Source: Hydnum rufescens UP504 (Eukaryota > Basidiomycota > Agaricomycetes > Cantharellales > Hydnaceae). Taken from it: a stretch of 49,319 bases of DNA. The DNA lies in the NCBI GenBank assembly GCA_014904985.1, contig MU128949.1, positions 288,549 to 337,867 on the forward strand, in the 5' to 3' direction. Of this stretch, positions 5,931 through 47,010 are shown piece after piece. The position numbers and the translations under genes were made by a program. Below the pieces are notes generated by a model. That model was given only the letters and a program-made list of their open reading frames with translations. It was not told the origin of the DNA and did no database searches. How positions within the stretch are numbered: position 1 is the first letter of the stretch; the number at the start of each line of letters is the position of its first letter.

Positions 5931-6445
5931 CTATCAATATGAGTATCGCTGTAAGGCCACCCATTAATTTCCTTATATAGTGGGCACAAGCCTAAGTCCG
6001 TGTGCCCACTATATAAGGAAATTAATGGGTGGCCTTAAGGGCTATTTTTCTGTTCCCTGCTTGCACGTCTTTATATTAGTCAATTTGACTCGATTTGTAA
6101 CACCCATGGGTGGTTGACAGGTTGTGGGATTAAAAGATCTGGGGCCAACACCGGGCTCCCGTCTAGTTTCAGTTAGGTACAGGTGGACTTAGAGAAATCA
6201 GTTCTCAAAGTAGCAGACTGACTAGTCCATTCACCCCAATATGTGTTCATTTGTTCAAAAGTTCATTTGTTCAAAAATTTGTTCATTCAAAAGTCCATTC
6301 GTTCAAAAGTCTGTTCGTTCAAATATTCACTCGTTCAAATGTTCGTTTGTTCAAATATTCACTTGTTCAAATGTTTGTTTGTTTAAATTGTTCGTTCAAG
6401 TGTTCATTTGTTCAGACATTTCTTTTTTTTACAGTATAATGCCCA
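5931..6445. repeat. Right terminal inverted repeat of the Tc1/mariner element
   Basis: This arm is the reverse complement of 1489-1925, including the TTTGAAC-type short repeats (about 6245-6420) and the end ACAGTATAATGCCCA. It is interrupted at 5954-6035 by a small palindromic element that is absent from the left arm. It diverges from the left arm inside about 5931. Confidence 0.85.
5954..6035. mobile_element. 82-base palindromic MITE nested in the transposon arm
   Basis: The left arm of the host element reads straight through the target as GCCCTTACAGCG (1888-1899). In the right arm the same site is split by AGGCCACCCATTAATTTCC...GGGTGGCCT with TA on both sides (5952-5953 and 6036-6037). The insert is an almost perfect palindrome with only about ten unpaired central bases. 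The TA duplication places it with Tc1/mariner-type MITEs. The empty site in the other arm makes the boundaries exact. Confidence 0.9.
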
Positions 6446-6742
6446 TACTATGGTATGACATGGCCCTTTATATAAAAAACGAGCGGCCTCTTGTTTGGAT
6501 TCGCATACACGGCTGGAATAATTGTTGTGCTCTGAGATTTCTGGCACTGGATAGTCTGGAGAAGTTCCTGGGATTTCTGTGGATCAGACAATATGAGCGA
6601 CGTCAACAAGAGGAATGGTGAAAGCAGTGGACTTGGGAACGGGACATTCGATAGTCGTGCTTGAGCTCATGGGCCATGGCATTATGGTGACTTTAGGAAT
6701 CATCAGGGCAGTTCCATGATACGATGACTAAGCACCACTGCC
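6446..6742. other. Gap between transposon and G1 gene; possible promoter
   Basis: No coding frame is supported here. A TATATAAAAAA stretch at about 6469-6479 could be a TATA-type promoter element, but it lies more than 250 bases before the G1 start and may be incidental. Confidence 0.3.
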
Positions 6743-11849: not shown

Positions 11850-12155
11850 GGGTCATTCGCACCTCGGCCCATCATCCGATGCGGGCGTCAATAAGGACCC
11901 ACCGAACCCCCTTAGGTTGGAAGCCTGCCTGCATGCTCCAACTGTGAACCGGGAATCAGACTGGTTCTGGACATTCTAGCCCCATGAGCGGATGATCATA
12001 CTCCCCCTTGACTAGTGTACGGGCTACTTGTAGGTACTTAATCCACGGGCATACTGAAATTCATCCAACAAGACATTACACCGCTAAATACTTCAAGTGA
12101 AAAAAAGGCCAGAAGGAGCAAACACCACAGGTTCCGATGAGAAATCCAGACGAAT
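11850..12155. other. Convergent intergenic region between SLY1 and CNT copy 1
   Basis: No gene is seen. Parts recur beside the other copies: GGTTCTGGACATTCTAG also occurs near 23028, TTGTAGGTACTTAATCCAC also near 18810, and the SLY1 3' flank near 15540-15597. Confidence 0.6.
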
Positions 12156-13981
12156 TTAAACCAAGGTCCCCGGAATTCCCGCAGTTTGCATCGTGGAGAT
12201 GAACCCACAGAACAGTGCTGAGGGGGCAGTGCTGAGGGGGCGATTGTGGCGATAACCCTTGCGCGGGAGGGTGCGAGGGCTGACAGCACGCCGATCTGGA
12301 TGCCGACAGATCCTAAGTAGTAGAGAGCAAACAAGACATTGAATCCGGCGAAGAAGAGGGGCAGATCATGCGAGTAATAATAATAATTTACCCAAGTTCC
12401 CAAAGCCACAAAGAGCGTAGCTTGCGATGGTGTATGCCCGTAAGGAGAGGGGCTGCGGCCCCTTCTGGATAGCTTGCAAATCGAGGTATGCAACAAACTC
12501 GTCGGCAACGAATTTCGTTCCAATGAGGCGCGACATGCGAAAGATTTCCGGTCGCGGGATGCCTTAAGAGGGAGGCAACAAGTGCATGATCAGCTAGACG
12601 AAGCCGAGTAAAAGAGAACACAACTGACGCATGAGGAATGTGAGGATAAGAAATATACCCAAATATGAGCTCAAGGGTCAGGTGGTGGATGGCAAAGCCC
12701 TTGCCAATGTATGTGAGAAGGCCGTCTATCGTATACACGAGTGCCAAGACCGTCAACACATTGGTCAAGATCTGACCGGCGACCAGCAGTCCGAATGATG
12801 CACCGTTGCTGAAAGCCTACAAAGAGACAGAGCATAAATCTCTAAGACCGAATCTTACAGTCATGAGGGGCGTACGTGAAGGGCGTTTGCAGGCTGATGT
12901 TTTGACTCTATGCCGCGGTCAACCACCACATTTCCCCGAGTGATGGGTTCTTCTCTCTCAGGAAAGCGGAGTTTGCTTATAGCGATAGAAGCTGGAATAG
13001 ACATCACTGAAGATGTCACAAGTGTTCTGACAAGGCAGGGCATGAAGCATACAAAATTACACGAGGGTTGAATTACATACGTTGCGGGGACGCCCAGATT
13101 GATGTATGCGGTGAGCACAGAACCAGCGATAGTGGAGAAACCTAATAAACATATCCCTTGACTCTCCTATAATAATACGTATCTTTGAACATCACGAACC
13201 GGAAGTCATCGTCAAGTGAATTTCCGAGGGTGTCATGAGGTCGACATAAGGCCGAACGAGACATGCGCTTTCGCCTTGGCCAATGAAGGGTGAAGAAGCA
13301 GCAACGACAGCCTCGGCACCCGAGACGCCCATGGTCTTGAAGAAAAACCATGCACTGGATGGAAAGTCAGTCCACATCACTTAGGATCCAAGTGATATCA
13401 ATGCCACGAACAATTTTGCGATCAACTACTGCATTACGCCGAACTACGGATATGACGGTTTTAGAGTGGAACACGAGGATACCGAAACAAGGAACCCTAC
13501 ATAGTACATCCTAGTGGACAAGGTTGAATCCACACTGTACGAGGTCAAGATGAATGTGGCTCACATCTGAACGAACAATCGCGCTCAAAGTGTTGACGAA
13601 AAATCAATGCTTGGCAATGATATCGGCATCGAAGAAGAACTGGGCGGCAGGTGCGGCCTCGCCTAGGAAATCTTGAGCCAAGATCGCAATCCACTTGAAA
13701 ATCTTGAATTTTGCATCGGACTTCAAGACGAACAGTGTGATGACTTGCTGAAAGAAATAACAGTATTCCAGGGAATATCGTTCCGGGCGTTCGAGGCCAG
13801 ATAGAAGCCGAATTGGAATACAGTGCGACCAAACGCGGATATCGCACGGTCTCCGTAGGTGCCACCCTGAGGGCCCGATTACAAAACCATGAGGACCCTG
13901 TCCCGAAGTGAAATGAACAGCTACTTGCTGGAGGGAGGTTAAGTCCAAAGGCTGACCCGAAAACAATGCCAATGAGTGCGA
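12156..13981 (-). pseudogene. Concentrative nucleoside transporter, copy 1, truncated and frameshifted
   Basis: CNT (SLC28/NupC-like) transporter remnant on the minus strand. Recognisable parts include [14 protein letters not shown] at the left break, [16 protein letters not shown], the signature [57 protein letters not shown] and [17 protein letters not shown]. The first exons (signal region and two membrane segments) are missing: homology to copies 2 and 3 ends at about 13981, where SLY1-derived sequence begins. Near the 3' end a 14-base unit CAGTGCTGAGGGGG is duplicated in tandem (about 12215-12242), which shifts the frame before the final MQTAGI-type end. Both defects mark it as a pseudogene. 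Confidence 0.85.
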
Positions 13982-14235
13982 GGGGGGAGATGGACACGTG
14001 TAATGTCACAGGGCCATCCCGAAGATCCTGCACGCGCAACATAGTAGCCAGCACATCTTTAGAGGTTTCATCAACCGCAAGGGTTTTCCACGCAGGAGCG
14101 CGTAGCGCCACTTGTGCTGGAATCGCTAAGTTGTAGCAGAGACAAGAGCAAGGCGGACTGTGCAGCTTGAATTGTTGCCATAATGCACTGCCAGTGGTGG
14201 TGGTCTATTTTATACTCCGAACAGTTAACGCGCTC
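13982..14235 (-). pseudogene. SLY1 promoter and first-exon fragment, fused to CNT copy 1
   Basis: On the minus strand, 14235 down to 13982 matches 9290-9545: the upstream TATAAA region, the ATG (14182) and IQAAQSA...[14 protein letters not shown], then [19 protein letters not shown] and GPVTLHV. A two-base deletion in the section after SSTSG breaks the original frame. At 13981/13982 it joins directly to the middle of CNT copy 1. A continuous frame crosses the junction (VTLHVSISP then [12 protein letters not shown]), but no ATG starts it, so a chimeric protein is unlikely. Confidence 0.85.
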
Positions 14236-15597: not shown

Positions 15598-15781
15598 CGC
15601 TTCGCACGGTTCTCCAGGTGTTCGAAGCTCAGAAATTTTGCTTGTTTACTATCCAAGAGATGCACCGCGGTGTGACAATGTGACCGCAAGGGGACGACGT
15701 GGATCCTGCGACTGGTACCACCGAAGAATAGGAAGACTGCGGGCGATATAACCAGGATATCGCCTAGGCAAGCAGACGATC
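15598..15781. other. Unassigned stretch before the intron array
   Basis: I see no gene here. If the array at 15782-17100 is one transcript, this may hold its first exon or promoter. A short inverted pair, GGGCGATATAACCAGGATATCGCCT (15743-15767), lies just before the first module. Confidence 0.3.
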
Positions 15782-15810
15782 ACACCCGCCGCTGCGGGTG
15801 TGGTTAAAAG

Positions 15811-15916
15811 GTCCGTTTTTTCTATGCTAGTAGATACAACGGCGCAAAAAGAGCAGCTTTCGCTGCTCTTTTTGCGCTGCTTTGAATTTCTTTACTAACA
15901 ACATTTATTATTATAG
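15811..15916 (+). other. Predicted intron 1 of the array, with hairpin
   Basis: The donor is a weak GTCCGT. The hairpin at 15842-15877 is GCGCAAAAAGAGCAGC, loop TTTC, GCTGCTCTTTTTGCGC (16 perfect pairs). Branch-like TTACTAAC lies at about 15890, and the acceptor TTATAG ends at 15916. Confidence 0.6.
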
Positions 15917-16084
15917 GTCATGGTCTGGTCCCAGGTGCCAAACGACGAGGCGCGACCGGCCAGAGCCCATATGGCAACACACCAAACAAAATGCAACACG
16001 ACGAGAATGCAGGAGGCGGCCACGCGCCGACCGAGTAGCTATGTGAACCACACACCCACTGCGGCGAGTGTGTGGTTCTCTAAT

Positions 16085-16183
16085 GTAAGTAGCACTGTGC
16101 ACCCCCAACGGCGCAAAAAGAGCAGCAAATGCTGCTCTGTTTGCGCTGGTTTCAATTTTCTAACTAATAATCTATTATTCTAG
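16085..16183 (+). other. Predicted intron 2 of the array, with hairpin
   Basis: The donor is GTAAGT. The hairpin at 16111-16146 has arms GCGCAAAAAGAGCAGC and GCTGCTCTGTTTGCGC and loop AAAT. The branch region is CTAACTAAT and the acceptor is CTAG. An exonic stem GAACCACACAC/GTGTGTGGTTC ends seven bases before the donor. Confidence 0.7.
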
Positions 16184-16352
16184 GCTATTGCCACAAATGA
16201 AGACCGGTGGAGCGAACCCCCCCTCCCCGAAGGTTAGCCCGCCCGCAAAGCGAGACCCGCGAACGACGACGATGCGCCAAATGAACGCACGAAGTGACGC
16301 TAAACCGCATGAACCGCAGACCCGATACTGCGGATGTGTGGTTGTATACAAG

Positions 16353-16453
16353 GCAAGTAATGTAGTGCACCCCAACGGCGCAAAAAGAGCAGCCCTTGCT
16401 GCTCTTTTTGCGTTCGTTTTAATTTTTAACTAACACATTATTTATTATTTGAG
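16353..16453 (+). other. Predicted intron 3 of the array (GC donor), with hairpin
   Basis: The donor CAAG|GCAAGT is a rare GC-AG type with otherwise ideal consensus. The hairpin at 16378-16412 is GCGCAAAAAGAGCAGC, loop CCTT, GCTGCTCTTTTTGCG. Branch AACTAAC, acceptor TTGAG. Confidence 0.65.
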
Positions 16454-16610
16454 GTTATCGCCTGAACCACCCGCCAACCGAGAGCCGCAAACGCGACCTG
16501 CCAAGGAACCTCCGCCAGACGAAACCTGGGAACGGGAGCACACGACACAAGCCCGCAGGGACCCCAGACGAACCACCCACCCGCTTCTGCGGGTGTGTAG
16601 TAATTTCAAG

Positions 16611-16722
16611 GTAAGTATTCTCGGTGTATAAGTACGATCGCGCAAAAGGAGCAGCGTATGCTGCACCTTTGTGTGGCCTTCTTTCCCTCCCTTTTTTACT
16701 AATGTATTATTTATTATCCTAG
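16611..16722 (+). other. Predicted intron 4 of the array, with hairpin
   Basis: The donor is CAAG|GTAAGT. The hairpin at 16640-16675 has the arm GCGCAAAAGGAGCAGC, loop GTAT and a complementary arm with one mismatch plus G-T pairs. Branch TACTAAT, acceptor CCTAG. An exonic stem CACCCGC/GCGGGTG lies at 16578-16595. Confidence 0.7.
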
Positions 16723-16905
16723 GTTTTCATCTGAACCCACAACCCCCAATCAATATCTGTGACCCCGCCGAACAAACACGCGAGAATGGCAACCCACCCC
16801 CCAAACGAAACCCACGAACGGCAACAAGTCGAAAACACGACACAAGACCACAGAAACCCTGGGTCAAACCCCACACCCGCTTCAGCGCGTGTGATAATTT
16901 TTGAG

Positions 16906-17014
16906 GTAAGTATTCGCCGTCCATAAGTACGATCGCGCAAAAGGAGCAGTGTGCACTGCTCCTTTTGTGTGGTTTTTCTTTTTTTACTAACTTATTATTT
17001 ATTTATTATCATAG
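16906..17014 (+). other. Predicted intron 5 of the array, with hairpin
   Basis: The donor is GAG|GTAAGT. The hairpin at about 16935-16973 has arms CAAAAGGAGCAG and CTGCTCCTTTTG. Branch TACTAAC, acceptor CATAG. It differs from introns 1-3 by a matched A-T to G-C change in the stem. Confidence 0.7.
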
Positions 17015-17239
17015 GTATTTTTCTGAACCCACAGTCCGCATCAACCCCCAACCAAACCCTCTCCCTCCCCCCCGACCCAAAACCTGCGACCCGGGGTGAG
17101 GGGGGGATATAGATAATTATAATTATAACCAAAACTCACGCAGAGCGGTATGTATAATATAATAATGAACAACTTAGAGATACAAGAATATCTTAGAATA
17201 TTATTTCAAAATTTATTTTGAGCCCCTACACTTGTGCTG

Positions 17240-17700
17240 AGGGGTGTTGTTAGTGTTGCTTTATGTATACCTGAAAAAGTGCAGAAACCAACCATCTGCT
17301 ATAAGAATTGCTTTGAACTTGAAATCACCCCCCTCTTATAACCAAATGACACCCCCTCCTCACACTCAACATGATATCAGAAGAATCTGTACATAACACC
17401 CACCAAGACATGACCCTACGCAAACTGTACATGTAGGATTGCTTCATGGTTGGTGCAGTGTACTGATTCTCCCAATACAATGTAACATGTGTGAGGATGA
17501 TAGGGGTTTGAACCCGCAACCTCCTGCCTTTTAGTCAGGTGCTCTACCCACTAAGCTACCCCCCCAATTCTGGAGATGAAACTTGTTATCCAACATGAAG
17601 ATTTTTGCAAGAATGTTGCAGGCATCCATGACAAGACAGAACCTGTGAAATGTAGAGCAACCATCCAGTGTGAAAACCTTTGGCACTGAACAACTTCCCA
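17240..17700 (+). repeat. Dispersed repeat family, copy 3, CpG-poor
   Basis: 17265-17400 matches 630-720 and the inverse of 48755-48890 (AACCAACCA...CTATAAGAA, GAAATCACCCCCCTCTTA). 17605-17690 matches 48940-49015 through GGCATCCATGACAAGACAGA and TTGGCACT. The two regions therefore hold related elements. A tRNA-like segment lies inside this copy. Confidence 0.65.
17492..17566 (-). tRNA. tRNA-like sequence, probably a decayed lysine-type tRNA
   Basis: On the minus strand the order GGTAGCTTAGTGGGTAGAGC, ACCTGACTAAAAGGCAGG, AGGTTGC, GGGTTCAAACCCC has the D-arm, anticodon-arm, variable and T-arm layout of a tRNA, with both internal promoter boxes recognisable. The acceptor stem (GGGGGGT against the 3' ATCATCC) pairs poorly, and the T stem has a mismatch. 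The anticodon loop CTAAAAG would give AAA at the anticodon, which is not a usual choice. I take it as a tRNA pseudogene or a tRNA-derived part of the surrounding repeat. Confidence 0.5.
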
Positions 17701-18587: not shown

Positions 18588-18948
18588 ATTGGGGTTGTTT
18601 ACAGTGATTTACATGTAAATTTTGATCAAAGTAAATAAAGTCACTTGACCGTGCAGCAAGCCGGATAACTCCGAAATTGGGACCTAACAGTAAGCTTTTT
18701 GATCTGGAAGCAGACGTCACGCTCCGCGTGACGTCTGCCTAGGGAGACTATCTCTGAGGGGAATTTGCTTCCGCCTGCAGTGGGCCTTGACAAGTGTACG
18801 AGCTAATTGTAGGTACTTAATCCACACGCATACTGAAATTCATCCAACAAGACATTACACCGCTAAATACTTCAAGTGAAAAAACAAGAAAAAAAGAGGC
18901 CAGAAGGAGCAAACACCACAGGTTCCGATGAGAAATCCCCAGACGAAT

Positions 18949-21363
18949 CTAAACCAAGGTCCCCGCAATTCCCGCAGTTTGCATCGTGGAGATGAACCCA
19001 CAGAACAGTGCTGAGGGGGCGAGTGTGGCGATCACCCTTGCGCGGGAGGGTGCGAGGGCCGACAGCACGCCGATCTGGATGCCGACAGATCCTAAGTAGA
19101 GCAAACAAGGCATTGAATCCGGCGAAGACGAGGGCAGATCATGCGAGTAATAATAATAATAATAATTTACCCAAGTTCCCAAAGCCACAAAGGGCGTAGC
19201 TTGCGATGGTGTATGCCCGTAAGGAGAGGGGGTCAGACCCCTTCTGGATCGCTTGCAAATCGAGGTATGCCACAAACTCGTTGGCGACGAATTTCGTTCC
19301 AATCAGGCGCGATACGCGAAAGATTTCCGGTCGCGGGGTGCCTTAAAGAGCGAGGCGACAAGTGCACGATCAGCCAGACAAAGGTGAGCAAAAAGAAAGC
19401 ACGACTGACCCATGAGGAATGTGAGAGGATAAAAAATATACCCAAATATGAGCTCGAGGGTCAGGTGGTGGATGGCAAAGCCCTTGCCAATGTATGTGAG
19501 AAGGCCGTCTATCGTATACACGAGTGCCAAGACCGTCAACACATTGGTCAAGATCTGACCGGCGACCAGCAGTCCGAATGATGCACCGTTACTGAAAGCC
19601 TACAAAGAGACAGAGCATAAATCTCTAAGACCGAATGACCGAATCTCACAGTCATGAGGGGCGTACGTGAAGGGCGTTTGCAGGCGCATGCTTCGACTCT
19701 ATGCCGCGGTCAACCACCACATTTCCCCGAGTGATGGGTTCTTCTCTCTCGGGAAAGCGGAGTTTGCTTATAGCGATAGAAGCTGGAATAGACATCACTG
19801 AAGATGTCACAAGTGTTCTGACAAGGCAGGGCATGAAGCATACGAAATCACACGAGGGTTGAATTACATACGTTGCGGGGACACCCAGATTGATGTATGC
19901 GGTGAGCACAGAACCAGCGATAGTGGAGAAACCTAATAAACATATCCCTTGACTCTCCTATAATAATACGTATCTTTGAACGTCACAAACCGGAAGTCAT
20001 CGTCAAGTGAATTTCCGAGGGTGTCATGAGGTCCACATAAGGCCGAACGAGACATGCGCTTTCGCCTTGGCCAATGAAGGGTGAAGAAGCAGCGACGACA
20101 GCCTCGGCACCCGAGACGCCCATGGTCTTGAAGAAAAACCATGCACTGGATGGAAAGTCAGTCCACGCCACTTAGGATTCAAGTCATATCAATGCCACGA
20201 ACAATTTTGCGATCAACCACTGCATTACGCCGAGCTACGGATATGACGGTTTTAGAGTGGAACACGAGGATACCGAAACAAGGGACCCTACATAGTACAA
20301 CCTAGTGGACAAGGTCAAATCCACGCTGCACGAGGTCAAGATGAACGTGGCTCACATCTGAACGAAGGCCACGAAGAAGATAATCGCGCTCAAAGTGTTG
20401 ACGAAAAACCAATGCTTGGCAATGGTATCGGCATCGAAGAAGAACTGGGCGGCAGGTGCGGCCTCGCCTAGGAAATCTTGAGCCAAGTTCGCAATCCACC
20501 TGAAAATCTTGAATCCTGCATCGGACTTCAAGACGAAGAGTGCGATGACTTGCTGGAAGAAGAGGCCGACAATAACCGTATTCCAGGGAATATCGTTGCG
20601 GGCGTTCGAGGCCAGATAGAAGCCGAATTGGAATACAGTGAGACCAAACACGGATATCGCGCGGTCTCCGTAGGTGCTACCCTGAGGACGCCATTACAAA
20701 ATTATGAGGACCTGTGGCGAATCGAAACGAAGAGCTACTTGCCGGAGGGAGCTTAAACCCAAAGGCCGACCCGAAAACAATGCCAATGAGTGCGAGCCAC
20801 CCCATGGCAAGGCGGGTATGATAAGGGATAGAGAAGAAAGGGCGCGATATCAAGGGTTCCCAGACTGTACCGACGGGTCTCGTTACGACGGAGTTTGGAA
20901 TAAACCGGAAAGCAATGATCCTTTGGACAAGTCAGAATGAGATAAGAGCGCGACGCACTCAATACCCGGACTCACAACATAAAGGTCCATGCCCAAAACG
21001 TATGAGGGATCTAATGGATATGCACGGTAAATTGAGCAACGGCAGGAAGTGTGGGTGTATTTGGTCCATACTGACCCAACGATGTCGAGAACTTGGCACA
21101 ACGAGGGAACTAATCCACCACCCAAGGATAATGGCGATCCAAACGCAAAGAATGAACACCCTGTACTTGGCATACCATCCTTGCCCAGTCCTATCCCGTA
21201 CCTCTTCCTGCGGTACGGCTTCTTCGATTGCTTTCGCGTGTATCCCCTTGTCCTGTGAGGACGTATAGAATTGGGCGGGATCTTTTTCCTCGTTTACCTC
21301 GTTCTTGACCTCCAATGACGGCGGCTTTCGCTGTATGACCTGGACCGATTCGAGTTCAGCCAT
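18949..21363 (-). CDS. Concentrative nucleoside transporter (CNT), copy 2
   Basis: Plasma-membrane symporter of the CNT/SLC28 family, expected to import nucleosides with protons or sodium. It starts [15 protein letters not shown], a charged cytosolic N-terminus of about 70 residues. The first membrane segment follows ([20 protein letters not shown]), then a 36-base exon ([11 protein letters not shown]) and [16 protein letters not shown]. The NupC N-domain follows ([28 protein letters not shown]). The core signature is [52 protein letters not shown] and [18 protein letters not shown]. The C-terminal segments are [19 protein letters not shown] and [20 protein letters not shown], then [17 protein letters not shown], with the end [11 protein letters not shown]. 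About ten introns are needed. I see no disabling change. Confidence 0.85.
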
Positions 21364-23223
21364 GCCGTCGGGAGCCAGCAGAGGGGACAAGCGAATATTT
21401 TTCTATTGAGCTGCATGTTATATGGAGTTATCCGACGCTTGACAAAAAATCAGAAGCTTAATGCTCCATGTGGGTACAGTACATGATAAGCCGACTCCCG
21501 GGCTCTTCCCGCCGCCCGCGCTACCTTGCGGATCAAGCCTCAGAGCTTTCCTCTGTGCTCCCGTCGCCGGTGCGGTTATGGGGCTACGTGGCTTCGGGGT
21601 TTCCAATTATGCGAGTTCAGCTTGCTTCGGTCTGAGTCCCTCAACGGGGCCCGGGAGATAGTCATTTTCGCTTGGCTCATGCTGTCTATTAAGCGCTATC
21701 AGGTTATCGCTACCTTGCGCTACCTTGCATCAGGTACGGTCAGACGAGCATGATTAATCTTAATTATGATCGTATGGCATATAATACTGTATGCTACTGC
21801 ATACATACTAGCAGTCCAGTCAGTTCGCGGCACATAAGAGACCAGGTCTCCTACGGATCGATCCTCCTCCCATTTTTGCTCGCGTGAGAACATCCGAGCT
21901 ACTAGCCCTACCGGGAGCTCAAGGTGAAGCAGCATCGGTGAGTCGCTGATTCAGAGTGCGGTGTTGAAAAAAAAAAACGTCACACTACGTACATGGGCCT
22001 CTTGCGGGCGGGATCGTATGCCGCTCTCCATACTGCCGCTTGAAGAGAGAGATAGGCAACACCATGGCGGCTACTGTGCCTAGTCGCACCTCTGTAAGGC
22101 GGTAGAAGGCGGCCTGGTGCATGCAATATTTCCGTGCCCCTGTCGGGGATAGCCGCACCCCCGTCATTTTAAACTTGGGTAGGGCCGACTGCGCGGGAAC
22201 GACCTTGGGGGGCTGTCTTCTTCAGGTAGCTGGGCGTAATCCCCCTGTTCCCCAAAAACTTGGAGGGAAAACTTGGCCCGGCCACATTTACCGATGATTA
22301 TCTGTAGCCGTACTGGGGTCTTTGGCGGGTGACTTCTTTAGGGCACCTTTACTTCGGATGGATCGAAGCTTCACCTTAGACTTGTCAGTACCTGCACGAG
22401 TCAGTCTTAAGTCCAGATGCTTACCCTCATCGGATTTCGTCGTAGGGCTTCATTTCTTGGCGACCCCGGCTTACAATATCTAGGCCACTTCGGACCTTGT
22501 ATACTCGAATTTAATTTGACGGGGTACTTGCTTGGGAAACTAGAAATGTTCAGTAGCATTGGTCTTCTGGTGGACCACCACTGAGGCTATAATCAAGGTT
22601 GTAAGAGGCCTCACTGGATCTAATATTGCTATAGTGGAAGAAGACAAGGTGACAGAAGATTTAGAAATATAGTCCATGTTTTTCTTTCATAGACTTGATA
22701 CTGAAGATGGATGGCGTGGGAACGCAACCGGGAACGAAAGAAATACCGGAATTGGCAGAGTAGGGCAAAGTTTCTGTGTGACACCACCCTCTGTGACGCG
22801 TGACAAAAGCAAAGGCTCTACGACACGTGACATGAACCTACGGTGTGCTTGTCTCCGACATCACACCTGGTCATTAATTGTCATTATTGCTCATCACAAA
22901 AAAGTCACATGCCACACTAGATGTGTAGATGTATCACTTATAACTCATACCTCCCGTCTCATCACCTGGGACCGTAGGGCTGACTTTCAGGCCCTTGGTT
23001 GTCTCGCACGTTGAACAACCTTGGTTCTGGACATTCTAGTAGCCCCGTGAGTGGATCAAGGAATGCTGCCAAAACTCTTGTCGACAAGCATATGCATGTC
23101 ATTGTGGTACCCAATCTACACCCAAACTGAAATACATCCAACAAGACATTGAACCCCTGCATGTGAAAAGGAAAAAAAGCCAGAAGGAACACCGCAGTGT
23201 CCCACGAGAAATTCAGACAAATT
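21364..23223. other. Spacer between CNT copies 2 and 3, with minus-strand coding-like remnants
   Basis: 21390-21830 (upstream of copy 2) is a diverged duplicate of 25640-26050 (upstream of copy 3). From about 22460 to 21980 the minus strand has protein-like basic stretches with possible introns (TDKSKVKLRSIRSKG, ALKKSPAKDPSTATDN, FGEQGDYAQLPEEDSPP, MTGVRLSPTGARKYCMHQA), perhaps a decayed small gene. 22480-23020 holds nothing I can support; GTGTGACA/CACGTGACA-type motifs there also occur near 29340-29420, suggesting repeat debris. Confidence 0.4.
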
Positions 23224-25613
23224 TTAAGCCAAGGTCCCCGCAATCCCGGCAGTTTGCATCGTGGCGATGAACCCACAGAATAGTGCCGAAGGAGCGATTC
23301 TGGCGATAACTCTTGCACGGGAGGGTGCGAGGGCTGATAACACACCAATCTGGATACCCACAGATCCTAGAGCAAACAAGGTATTTAATCTAGCAAAACA
23401 AGGCTGGATCGTGCAAGTAATAATTACCCAAGTTCCCAAAACCACAAAGAGCATAGCTTGCAATAGTGTATGCCCGTAAGGAGAGGGGGTGAGGCCCCTT
23501 TTGGATAGCTTGCAAATCAAGGTATGCAACAAACTCGTTGGCGACGAATTTCTTTCCAATGAGACGCGACACACGAAGGATTTCCGGTCGTGGGGTGCCT
23601 TAACAGGTGGCAAATGCAAGATCAACTACACGGAGCCGAGAAAAAGAGAGTACAACTGACCCATGAGGAATGTGAGAGGATAAAAAATATACCCAAATAT
23701 GAGCTCGAGGGTGAGGTGGTGGATGGCAAAACCCTTGCCGAGCCATGTGAGAATGCCGTCTATCGAATATACAAGCGCCAAGATCGTTAACACATTGGTC
23801 AAGATCCGACCAGCGACCACCAGTCCGAATGATGCACCGTTACAGAAAGCCTACAAAGAGACAGATCATAAATCTCTAAGATCGGATCTTAGATACATGG
23901 GAGGCGTACGTGAAGGGCGTTTGCAGGCTCATGCTTCGACTGTATGCCGCGGTCAACCACCACGTTTCCCCGAGTAATAGGATCCTCTTTCTCGGGGAAG
24001 CGCAGCTTGCTTATGGCAATCGAGGCCGGAACAGACATTACTGAAGATGTCAGAATTGTTCTGACAAAGTACGGCGTGAAGGATACGGAATTACGGGAGG
24101 GTTAAGTTACATACCTTGGGGAAATACCCAGAGTGATGTATGCAGTGAGCAATGAACCGGCAAGGGTGGAGAAACCTAACAAAGATATCACTTGACTCTC
24201 CTATAATACATATCTTCGAACAGCACGAACCGGAAGTCATCGTCAAGTGAATTTCCGAGGGTGTCATGAGGTCCACATAAGGCTGAACGAGACATGCGCT
24301 TTCACCTGGACCGAAGAAGGGAGACGAAACAGCGACGACGGCCTCGGCACCCGAGATATCCATGCTCTTGGAGAAAAACCATGCACTGGATGGAAGGTCA
24401 GTCCACACCGCTTAGGATCCAGTCATATCAATGTCACGAACCATCCCGCAATCAACCACTGCATTACGCCGAACTATGGATATAGCGATTTTAGAGTGAG
24501 ACATGAGGATACTGAACAAGGAACCCTACATAGTACAACCTAGTGGACAAGGTTAAATCCAGGCTGTACGAGGTCAAGATGAATGTGGCTCACATCTGAA
24601 CGAAGGCCACGAAAAAGATAATCGCGCTCAAAATGTTGATGAAAAACCAATGCTTGGCAACGGTATCAGCATCGAAGAAAAACTGGGCCCCATGTGCGCC
24701 CTCGTCTAGGAGTTCTCTAGCCAAGCCCACAACCTTCTTGAAAATCCTGAATCCTGCATCGGTCTTCAAGGCGAAGAGTGCGATGGCTTGCTGAAAGAAG
24801 AGTCCAACAATAACCGTATTCCAGGGAATGTCATTCCGTGCGTTCGAGGCCAGATAGAAGCCGAATTGGAATACAGCAAGACCAAACACGGATATCGCAC
24901 GGTCTCCGTAGGTGCTACCCTGAGGGCCCGATTACAAAATCATGAGGACCCTGTCCTGAATCGAAATAAACAGCCACTTGCCGGAGGGGGCTTAAATCCA
25001 AAGGCTGACCCGAAAACAATGCCAATGAGTGCGAGCCACCCCATGGCAAGGCGAGTACGGTAGGGGATAGAGAAGAAAGGACGCGATACGAAGGGACCCC
25101 AGACTGCACTGACGGGTCTCGTTACGACAGAGTTTGGAGTAAACCGGAAAGCAATGACCCTTTGGACAAGCGGGGGTCAGAACGAGATGAGGGCGTGACG
25201 CACTCGACGCTCGGACTCACGAGACAAGGTTCCATGCCAAAACCGTTAGAGTAATCTGATAGACATATACGATAAATCGAGCGGCGGCAGGAAGTGTGGA
25301 TTCGATCCATACTGACCCAACGAGGTCGAGAAGTTGGCACAACGATGGAACTAATCCACCACCCAAGGACAGCGATGATCGAAGCACAAAGAATGAACAC
25401 CCTGTACTTGGCATACAATCCCTGAGCTTTCCCATCCTGTGCTTCGACCTCTTCTTCCGATAGGGCTTCTTCGACTGCTTTCACGTGTGCCTCCTTGTCC
25501 TGAGAAGACGTATAGGATTGGGCGCGTGCATGGTCTTTTTGCCCAGTTACATCGTTCTGTACGCCCAAGGACGGTTTTTGCTCGATGACCTGGAGGGTTT
25601 CGAGTTCAGCCAT
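23224..25613 (-). CDS. Concentrative nucleoside transporter (CNT), copy 3
   Basis: A tandem paralogue of copy 2 with the same exon layout. It starts [20 protein letters not shown] and carries the first membrane segment ([20 protein letters not shown]) and the short exon [12 protein letters not shown]. It continues with [93 protein letters not shown] and the end [11 protein letters not shown]. It differs from copy 2 by many substitutions, including in the N-terminus and in the FFGPGES region, so the duplication is not very recent or has been selected. Start and stop match copy 2. No stop or frameshift is evident after removing GT...AG introns. Confidence 0.85.
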
Positions 25614-42570: not shown

Positions 42571-43616
42571 TGGTTGCTGAAGTCAGGTTACAAACCCTGG
42601 AAACCTGAGTTTGAACCTGAACCTGACCTGTGGTCAGGTTCAGGTTTTTCCCTCATGGGTGATTTCAGGTTTTGGGCCCCAATGTTATCAGGTTCAGGTC
42701 AGGTTCAGGTTTAACCCAGGTTCAAACCTGAGCCCCTTCAGACATGAGAAATATCTGAGCTGAACACTGATTTTAACCATAATCTAGAATGAGTCATCAA
42801 TTCTGGCAAGTTCCAGAATTATGTAAGCAGGTTCCTTGGTGGAGAAATAGGTTACTTTGAACTGAAGTTAAACATAAAACCTTATGCAAAGTTTATATTG
42901 ACTATGCATAGTCAATATAAACTTTGCATAAGGTTTTATGTTTAACTTCAGTTCAAAGTATGATGCTGCGGTTCAGGTTTAAACCTGTGGAACCTGAGTT
43001 TAAACCTGAACCTGACCCAGGTCAGGTTCCATCAGGGTCAGGTTTCATTTCATTTTCTTCCAGTCAGGTTCAGGTTTGCCCTTGCCCTGAATCCAAAAAC
43101 TCGGTCTGAAACAGGTTAAACTGAACCTGAAAGGTAGGGTGTAGGTTCCATTCCATGTAAATTGACCACTATTCTGGCACCAAATCTGGCAATTTACACA
43201 TGTGACTATAGTTCTGGAGTCAGAAGTCACATGACTTGGCCATCAAATGAGGTAATTGGTGCAGGTCACAAGTCACATGACAGAATGTAGTGACTAAATA
43301 CCATCTCCAGAAGATGTGTGGAGCAGTAAATTGAAGTGAAAGGGGCTAGGAAGGAGATGTGGATCTAAAGCAGGATGTAAAGGGAGTGGCAGAGGCAGAG
43401 ACTTGAGCAGAGGGGTAGATATTCTGTAGTACCCCCTGAAAATGTTGGCTTCCCTCATACCTCAGGTTTCAGGTTTAAACCAGGTTTAAACCTGAACCTG
43501 ACCTGAATGAGACCGAACCTCAGGTCAGGTTCAGGTTTTTGCCCTCATGGGTGATTTTGGAACCTGTCAGGTTTAGGTTTTGCCCAAATTGGCAAAACCT
43601 GACCAAAACCTGACCA
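42571..43616. mobile_element. Fold-back element A built from AGGTTC-type hexamers
   Basis: The left part (42571-42855) starts TGGTTGCTGAAGTCAGGTTA and is rich in CAGGTT/AACCTG runs. A palindrome of about 106 bases follows, centred near 42904 (CTTTGAACTGAAGTTAAAC with its exact complement). The right part (42962-43616) again contains dense CAGGTTCAGGTTTAAACC repeats and ends ACCTGACCA. TA flanks both ends (42569-42570 and 43617-43618). The right part lacks the closing GCAACCA seen in copy B. No coding capacity. Confidence 0.7.
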
Positions 43617-43617
43617 T

Positions 43618-45619: not shown

Positions 45620-47010
45620 TGGTTGCTGAAGTCAGGTTACAAACCCTGGGAACCTGAGTTTGAACCTGAACCTGACCTGTGGTCAGGTTCAGGTTTTGGT
45701 CAAGTTCAGGTTTTGGGCCCCCATGTTTTCAGGTTCAGGTCAGGTTGAGATTTAACCCAGGTTCAAACCTGAAATTATGCAGCCCTTCAGACATGAGAAA
45801 TATCTGAGCTGAACACTGATTTTAACCATAATCCAGAATGAGTCATCAATTCTGGCAAGTTCCAGAGTTATGTAAGCAGGTTTCTTGGTGGAGAAATAGG
45901 TTACTTTGAACTATGGTTGCCATGGTCAGGTTTTGGTCAGGTTTTGCCCAATTTGGGCAAAACCTAAACCTGACCAGGTTCCAAAATCACCCATGAGGGC
46001 AAAACCTGAACCTGACCTGAGGTTCGGTCTCATTCAGGTCAGGTTCAGGTTTAAACCTGGTTTAAACCTGAAACCTGAGGTATGAGGGAAGCCAACATTT
46101 TCAGGGGGTACTACAGAATATCTACACCCTCTGCTCAAGTCTCTGCCTCTGCCACTCCCTTTACATCCTGCTTTAGATCCACATCTCCTTCCTAGCCCCC
46201 TTTCACTTCAATTTACTGCTCACACATCTTCTGGAGATGGTATTTAGTCACTACATTCTGTCATGTGACTTGTGACCTGCACCAATTACCTCATTTGATG
46301 GCCAAGTCATGTGACTTCTGACTCCAGAACTATAGTCACATGTGTAAATTGCCAGATTTGGTGCCAGAATAGTGGTCAATTTACATGGAATGGAACCTAC
46401 ACCCTACCTTTCAGGTTCAGGTTTAAACCTGGTTTCAGACCAGTTTTTGGATTCAGGGCAAGGGCAAAACCTGAACCTGACCTGAAGAAAATGAAATGAA
46501 ACCTGACCCTGATGGAACCTGACCTGGGTCAGGTTCAGGTTTAAACTCAGGTTCCACAGGTTTAAACCTGAACCGCAGCATCCATACTTTGAACTGAAGT
46601 TAAACATAAAACCTCATGCAAAGTTTATATTGACTATACATAGTCTATACATAGACTATGTATAGTCAATATAAACTTTGCATGAGGTTTTATGTTTAAC
46701 TTCAGTTCAAAGTAACCTATTTCTCCACCAAGAAACCTGCTTACATAACTCTGGAACTTGCCAGAATTGATGACTCATTCTGGATTATGGTTAAAATCAG
46801 TGTTCAGCTCAGATATTTCTCATGTCTGAAGGGCCTCATGATTTCAGGTTTGAACCTGGGTTAAACCTCAACCTGACCTGAACCTAACCTAAGATAGGTT
46901 TTCTTCAGGTTAGGTTCAGGTTTTGCCAATTGAGGAGATTCAGGTTTTGGTTAAGTTCAGGTTTTGCCCAAATGGGGCAAAACCTGACCTGAACCTGACT
47001 TTGGCAACCA
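45620..47010. mobile_element. Fold-back element B, full-length relative of element A
   Basis: The ends TGGTTGCTGAAG and TTTGGCAACCA are inverted and flanked by TA (45618-45619 and 47011-47012). The left arm (45620-45905) matches 42571-42855. 45913-46583 is the inverse of the right part of element A. 46587-46715 is the central palindrome with an extra TATACATAGTCTA expansion, and 46716-47010 is the inverted left arm. An internal TATGGTTGCC at 45914 looks like another element end, so the middle may be a nested insertion. The family is dominated by AGGTTC-type hexamer arrays. Confidence 0.72.

Follow-up and report, generated by a model that had tools for sequence, protein, structure and literature searches.

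The stretch of the Hydnum rufescens UP504 genome analysed here (contig MU128949.1, positions 288,549 to 337,867; 49,319 nucleotides, hereafter the window) contains a tandem array of intron-like modules, and it raises the question of what kind of genetic object such a chain of introns belongs to. The array had been predicted from the letters of the window as five modules with two hairpins each, and this description is supported by the analysis below. We asked how the array is built, how it is distributed in the genome, and which explanation best accounts for its hairpins and its splice signals.

Five head-to-tail modules occupy window positions 15769-17017, and each repeats one order: a hairpin in the exon, the donor, a hairpin in the intron, the branch site and the acceptor. 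From 55 modules, of which three come from the window, a covariance model (R1) was built; it recovered full modules at 15769-15919, 16039-16186, 16305-16456, 16564-16725 and 16860-17017, all on the plus strand and with E-values of 4e-23 to 9.9e-27, which upholds the five-module array of the original prediction. R1 found no full module elsewhere in the 49-kb window; at E-values up to 1 there were six further rows, which are partial antisense matches to the same hairpins. In each module a T-poor exon ends in a hairpin, the donor follows a few bases on, and the intron measures 99-112 bases; the window introns have a hairpin of up to 20 bp, a CTAAY branch site and an AG acceptor. The reported T-poverty of the exons was confirmed across 18 copies, with 13.2% T in exons and 36.3% in introns.

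With its leader and an A/T-rich tail the array spans 15674-17257, and all of its parts are given here for the plus strand. The leader (15674-15777) resembles the leader in other copies; its left edge lies at or before about 15674, without a recognised terminal inverted repeat. It is followed by the first exonic hairpin (15778-15805; GATCACACCCGC / GCGGGTGTGGTT) and by predicted intron 1 (15811-15916), with donor GTCCGT, branch site TACTAAC, acceptor TAG and an 18-bp hairpin at 15840-15879 whose loop is TTTC. Exons 2 to 5, all T-poor, lie at 15917-16084, 16184-16352, 16454-16610 and 16723-16905, and have hairpins at about 16046-16078 (terminal), 16314-16342 (imperfect), 16575-16600 and 16871-16894, respectively. 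Predicted intron 2 (16085-16183; GTAAGT, ACTAAT, TAG) has its hairpin at 16111-16146, with one mismatch and the loop AAAT; predicted intron 3 (16353-16453; GCAAGT, ACTAAC, GAG) at 16377-16414, with the loop CCTT; predicted intron 4 (16611-16722; GTAAGT, TACTAAT, TAG) at 16640-16673, with one mismatch, one missing base and the loop GTAT; and predicted intron 5 (16906-17014; GTAAGT, TACTAAC, TAG) at 16931-16974, with the loop GTGC. The last exon and the A/T-rich 3' region (17015-17257) are recognisable in other copies to about 17257, and from the composition of this region one might guess at a poly(A) or terminator role.

The donors of all five introns are thus as originally claimed. The TAG acceptors are present in four of the five introns, the exception being intron 3 with its GAG; among the best 150 of 164 module matches, 129 have TAG. 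The donor GTCCGT of intron 1 is peculiar to the window copy; of the 17 other aligned copies, 9 carry GTGAGT there. It had also been noted that the stem of intron 5 carries a matching C in its other arm. This is correct for intron 5, although it is not exclusive to it: the right arm of intron 4 has a matching C as well, separate from its mismatch and missing base, and the two-sided change is therefore found in introns 4 and 5. Near the array, at 17491-17565 on the minus strand, lies a tRNA gene that was called as Phe with anticodon AAA (Rfam, 40.3 bits). An A at the wobble position is unusual for tRNA-Phe, and this gene is perhaps a pseudogene.

To place the array we searched one genome, the 63.2-Mb assembly of 539 contigs. 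With the array as query, and with 40 of 1,545 candidates scored, there were at least 208 matches; because the search scores part of the candidates, element counts are lower bounds. One type of hairpin arm, AAAAAGAGCAGC with its complement, has 2,348 exact forward matches in the genome and none in the reversed control. The original prediction had been staked on the existence of further copies, and these are plentiful. The hairpin pattern with a four-base loop occurs in 106 stretches of a prokaryote collection of 257 billion bases and in 4 stretches of viral contigs, and set against 2,348 these numbers put the hairpin density of this genome in another order. The window array is one copy of a dispersed mobile DNA repeat family; all averages given here pool its young and old copies. 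Decay is stronger at CpG columns in array copies L009-L028 and in the window, consistent with cytosine methylation of repeats; beside the array of L028, from about 6295 in reverse-complement orientation, there is a run of N (a masked stretch).

The order of the modules in an array is inherited. In 14 copies, some of them close pairs, 69 of 70 modules had their nearest neighbour at the same array position, and this was true of 50 of 50 modules when the comparison was repeated with ten less related copies. Mean divergence between modules was 0.329 within one array and 0.166 at the same position in other copies. Because nearest neighbours follow array position, the chain is old and has been inherited as a unit. 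That the duplication of the chain is ancient, and that its links are nevertheless still intron-like, points to selection in the active lineage.

Array copies are found within inverted-repeat elements of several kinds: a 2-kb type A, others with different termini, and foldback elements. Three copies (L011, L013 and L015) belong to a common 2.0-kb unit of about 96% identity with sharp ends at unrelated places, which is also matched by L017 (1.65 kb, 91%) and L027 (0.93 kb, 94%). This unit ends in inverted repeats (type A) and is flanked by target duplications of 8 bp, which are exact in L011 and L013 and match at 7 of 8 bases in L015. The same array sits in another terminal repeat (type B) in L016, which has an exact 9-bp target duplication, and in L018, for which no target duplication was evident; L014 represents a related third terminal type, and L009 and L020 a fourth. 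Pairs of type A repeats on contigs C498 and C202, 4.9 and 8.3 kb apart, enclose matches to PF10551, the MULE transposase domain, and the C498 element has an exact 8-bp target duplication. No modules were found in these two transposase-bearing elements (L043 and L044) at E-values up to 0.1.

Target site duplications of Mutator-like elements measure about 8-11 bp, a range that includes those of L011, L013, L015, L016 and the C498 element. Terminal repeats in common with a transposase-encoding element were found in the type A group alone (L011, L013 and L015). From their sequence, array elements of type A resemble Mutator-like elements that are non-autonomous and carry the array as cargo. We infer that a MULE transposase acts on these copies: array copies would be non-autonomous, and the mobility of the type A single-arm copies would be supplied in trans by Mutator-like transposases. 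Domain matches in the genome at E-values up to 0.001 comprised 90 to the hAT dimerisation domain and 13 to the MULE domain, some of them with in-frame stops. As a mover of the arrays hAT was set aside, since none of its 90 matches adjoins a listed array in a rough comparison of coordinates by eye. For the window array itself we found no inverted repeat within 2.5 kb on either side and no recognised duplication, and its edges are diffuse; this copy is probably truncated or worn. Lacking terminal repeats and a duplication, it is not filed as a MULE, but as a relative of array copies that are.

A second architecture was seen in all seven two-arm loci examined (L025, L027, L028, L029, L030, L031 and L032), where arrays diverge from a centre. 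The space between the arms is self-inverse in each of the seven, with nine palindromes of 433-1071 bp and 71.5-94.7% identity. Long, internally repetitive inverted arms around a centre are thus present in these loci, which have the architecture of foldback elements, and absent from single-arm copies like that of the window. In L029 and L033 the arrays extend outwards to one shared terminus, TGACTGACCAGCCTG (type D), of which the genome contains 152 forward and 168 reverse occurrences. Five end pairs, chosen by coordinates and orientation, carry type D repeats in inverted orientation, and none of the five showed a target duplication; the interior read was the first 1.3 kb of one of them, the C32 pair. 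L025, L029 and L030 hold, within 10 kb, type D ends together with several arrays that run in both directions; here elements lie beside or inside one another.

The window contains other repeats of this general form. An inverted repeat of about 410 bp at 1487-1894 and 6036-6447, 95% identical, contains 16-bp tandem repeats and starts TATGGGCATTATACTG; the pair makes up another foldback-like element, of 5 kb, in whose flanks no clear target duplication was found. A further inverted repeat (42690-43617 and 45922-46885; 95%) is accompanied by a perfect 108-bp palindrome at 42853-42960. With these additional inverted repeats and palindromes, the window is dense in foldback-like structures. A 2-3 kb unit in which A exceeds T is also present there three times in the same orientation, at 12006-13982, 18785-20796 and 23101-25035.

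The two-arm loci bear directly on an alternative explanation, in which the palindromes act in DNA, as sites for binding or folding that recur along a foldback transposon, are kept perfect by arm-templated repair, and carry intron signals that are incidental. The layout of the two-arm loci, all seven of which have divergent arrays about a palindromic centre, is what such an explanation would lead one to expect, and foldback elements with internally repetitive arms are known (PMC3573991, PMC3169594). We consider this explanation unlikely, and our reasons lie in the pairing of the hairpins and in the splice signals.

Pairing was examined in two sets of modules. For the first (A1), 124 modules found by a motif script were reduced to 89 by donor and length limits and to 64 by taking out near duplicates, of which 60 were aligned by script and 55 retained, nine rows having been removed in all. 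The second (A2) drew on 23 sources, with L012, L013, L015 and L024 left out as close duplicates, and consists of the best 150 of 164 matches. In these best 150 of 164 modules, 93.8% of stem cells hold standard pairs, and 23 of 31 pairs show two-sided changes, in 220 cells, where shuffles gave 85.2 and slid controls no more than 65; the count includes shared descent and comes from an alignment fitted to structure. In a MAFFT alignment of 55 modules, 14 pairs are two-sided, with 67 cells as against 29.2. The covariation claimed at the outset therefore stands, and the excess of 220 over 85.2 is the opposite of covariance no better than that of a plain inverted repeat. Loops in reverse-complement form (TTTC, AAGG) do exist, however, so arm-templated repair in DNA may make some of the paired changes.

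Loops that are unusually stable in RNA include cGNRAg and cUNCGg. In the best 150 of 164 modules, 46 of 150 intron loops are of GNRA type, compared with 4 reverse complements, and 25 of 150 exon loops are TNCG, again compared with 4 reverse complements. Genome-wide there are 636 GAAA loops and 79 TTTC loops; 45 of the 79 have a spacing of 41-44 bases and, judged from one 42-base case, are the antisense reading of the GAAA hairpin. The majority of loops fall outside both the GNRA and the TNCG type. The commonest loops are nonetheless stable RNA types in the sense orientation, and this bias to the sense strand, like the T-poverty of the exons on that strand, argues against a function in DNA; the GAAA excess may simply be ancestral. 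Other observations favour DNA. Loops occur in both orientations, and decay at CpG ignores wobble. Over all stem cells G-U exceeds A-C (236 to 87 in introns, 93 to 72 in exons), with few pairs carrying most of the difference, and at the four CpG-bearing pairs wobble accounts for 75 cells and unpaired departures for 100, which is no wobble preference and runs against expectation. At these pairs most copies therefore look like neutrally decaying DNA, and most copies probably do decay neutrally. When modules were folded alone (80 of the 150), donor and branch site were not left open, with mean pairing of 0.60 and 0.44.

The splice signals weigh more clearly against incidental introns. In 11 representatives of the 18 aligned copies, splice-signal columns outside CpG had a mean identity of 0.960 compared with 0.915 for base-matched background, a value reached by 0 of 5000 random draws; among the same 11 copies, identity outside CpG was 0.979 in the arms of the intron hairpins and 0.806 in their loops. 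A GT or GC donor, a CTRAY branch site and an AG acceptor, in the order of a spliceosomal intron, are all kept in 122 of 150 modules (the best 150 of 164), and this in spite of the divergence of about 33% between modules of one array. Conservation of donor, branch and acceptor above a matched background is not what palindromes acting in DNA would lead one to expect.

A second alternative, which we regard as improbable, is that the intron hairpins are small-RNA precursors and the array a small-RNA cluster acting against or for the transposon. The stems are compact and the loops stable, and there are weak Rfam microRNA matches below threshold. However, a stem of 16-20 bp closed by a loop of about 4 bases is short for a Dicer substrate, and the microRNA matches are far below the gathering score, as are all Rfam matches to the array at E-values up to 1. 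No known RNA family was found in the array at the Rfam gathering threshold, the only match of that level in the window being the tRNA.

A third, still less probable, is that the array descends from a decayed multi-exon protein gene family caught by transposons, in the manner of Pack-MULEs. Mutator-like elements do capture sequences in this way (PMC8277862), and terminal repeat A is Mutator-like. Against this origin, gaps in the exons relative to the window copy are multiples of three in 67 of 231 cases (18 copies), which is not above chance, and the longest open stretch of the joined exons in the sense direction was like that of shuffles in 18 of 18 copies (smallest fraction 0.065). On these two grounds we rejected protein coding in the sense direction, and the original statement that no single frame crosses the exons is supported for that direction. 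The coding tests leave room for the array as a captured noncoding unit. On the antisense strand of the joined exons, open stretches were longer than those of shuffles in 6 of 18 related copies (fraction at most 0.035), the window's included, which is a point for a captured gene; these antisense stretches reach 216 codons, for example at window 15740-17090.

Least probable of all, although the original prediction implied such a kinship, are introner-like elements, single hairpin introns that multiply by insertion into genes and have piled up here: fungal introner-like elements do have predicted stable secondary structure or inverted repeats (PMC8469720), but here the exons are common to copies together with the introns, the modules are chains inside inverted-repeat elements, the five array modules are the only full ones in the 49-kb window, array order is inherited, and the four apparently single matches that were opened, among the other matches in the genome, were multi-module arrays in four of four cases.

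We therefore return to the explanation that we favour. With reasonable though not high confidence, we take the array to be the interior of a family of DNA transposons in which no sense coding signal was detected, and we predict that short hairpin introns are spliced out of their transcript all along the chain; the identity as an intron-array transposon is, if anything, slightly the more secure part. To judge from the conserved signals, the intron chain is probably spliced, and it would likely keep the element's transcript abundant. Transcription would start in the leader, upstream of module 1, and in two-arm copies it would run from the central palindrome outwards in both directions. Each pair of hairpins would isolate its module. 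The intronic stem would shorten the distance from donor to branch site, the stem in the exon would close off its end, and the step from a U-poor exon to a U-rich intron would mark the boundary. We propose that the two stems and the U contrast together would allow every intron to be removed in its place.

What the element might gain from this is harder to say. In Cryptococcus neoformans, introns have a cumulative positive effect on mRNA levels (PMC3744415), and transcripts whose splice signals are poor become stalled in spliceosomes and lead to siRNA production against transposons (PMC7763443). By analogy, efficient removal of many introns could raise the accumulation of the element's RNA, and efficient splicing could avoid the stalled spliceosomes that in Cryptococcus feed RNAi against transposons; both steps are weaker than those above, and the mechanism as a whole, in which many good introns raise element RNA and evade spliceosome-fed siRNA, is doubtful. 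The full account can be put forward tentatively, with slightly more assurance than that mechanism: a DNA transposon whose whole body is an intron chain, with no protein, two RNA hairpins per link, extra-stable loops and U-poor spacers, in which an active lineage has been selected for splicing, splicing is the working part that lifts the RNA past nuclear decay and spliceosome-coupled silencing, and different termini have taken up the same chain.

If splicing does take place, the family would offer a natural case of introns that a selfish element has optimised without any duty to code. The donor, branch site, acceptor, hairpins and spacer composition could be read from many diverged copies, and it would become testable whether RNA structure in introns and at exon ends speeds fungal splicing, and whether transposons evade spliceosome-linked RNAi by means of good introns. 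The array family would also offer genes a concrete source of hairpin introns.

Among the matches listed from the open-access literature, none describes an intron-array transposon. Fungal introner-like elements and symmetrical stwintrons (PMC8469720) resemble the array as many near-identical introns with inverted-repeat structure in fungal genomes; introner-like elements, however, are described as integrating singly and seamlessly at new gene positions, without flanking duplications, whereas the array consists of exon-intron chains inside transposons. Pack-MULEs (PMC8277862) are, like the array elements, Mutator-like with captured internal sequence, and differ in that the cargo here is a repeated intron array without a sense coding signal. 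Galileo, of the Foldback type in Drosophila, is placed with P elements by its transposase; the excerpt of PMC3573991 does not mention intron modules. The nearest published system, within the literature that was searchable, is Tm1, the Mutator/Foldback elements of root-knot nematodes of the histone-hairpin class (PMC3169594). Tm1 has a Mutator-like transposase in the family, composite foldback-like terminal repeats and 9-bp duplications, as has the array family, and the available text gives it an internal transcript without obvious coding potential, drawn with introns, and one RNA hairpin motif. The Tm1 unit measures about 900 bp, eight such elements are reported with one hairpin motif, and that text describes neither a chain of introns nor a hairpin at each donor. 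Compared with Tm1, the array family is a chain of links, with two hairpins per link, on a larger scale.
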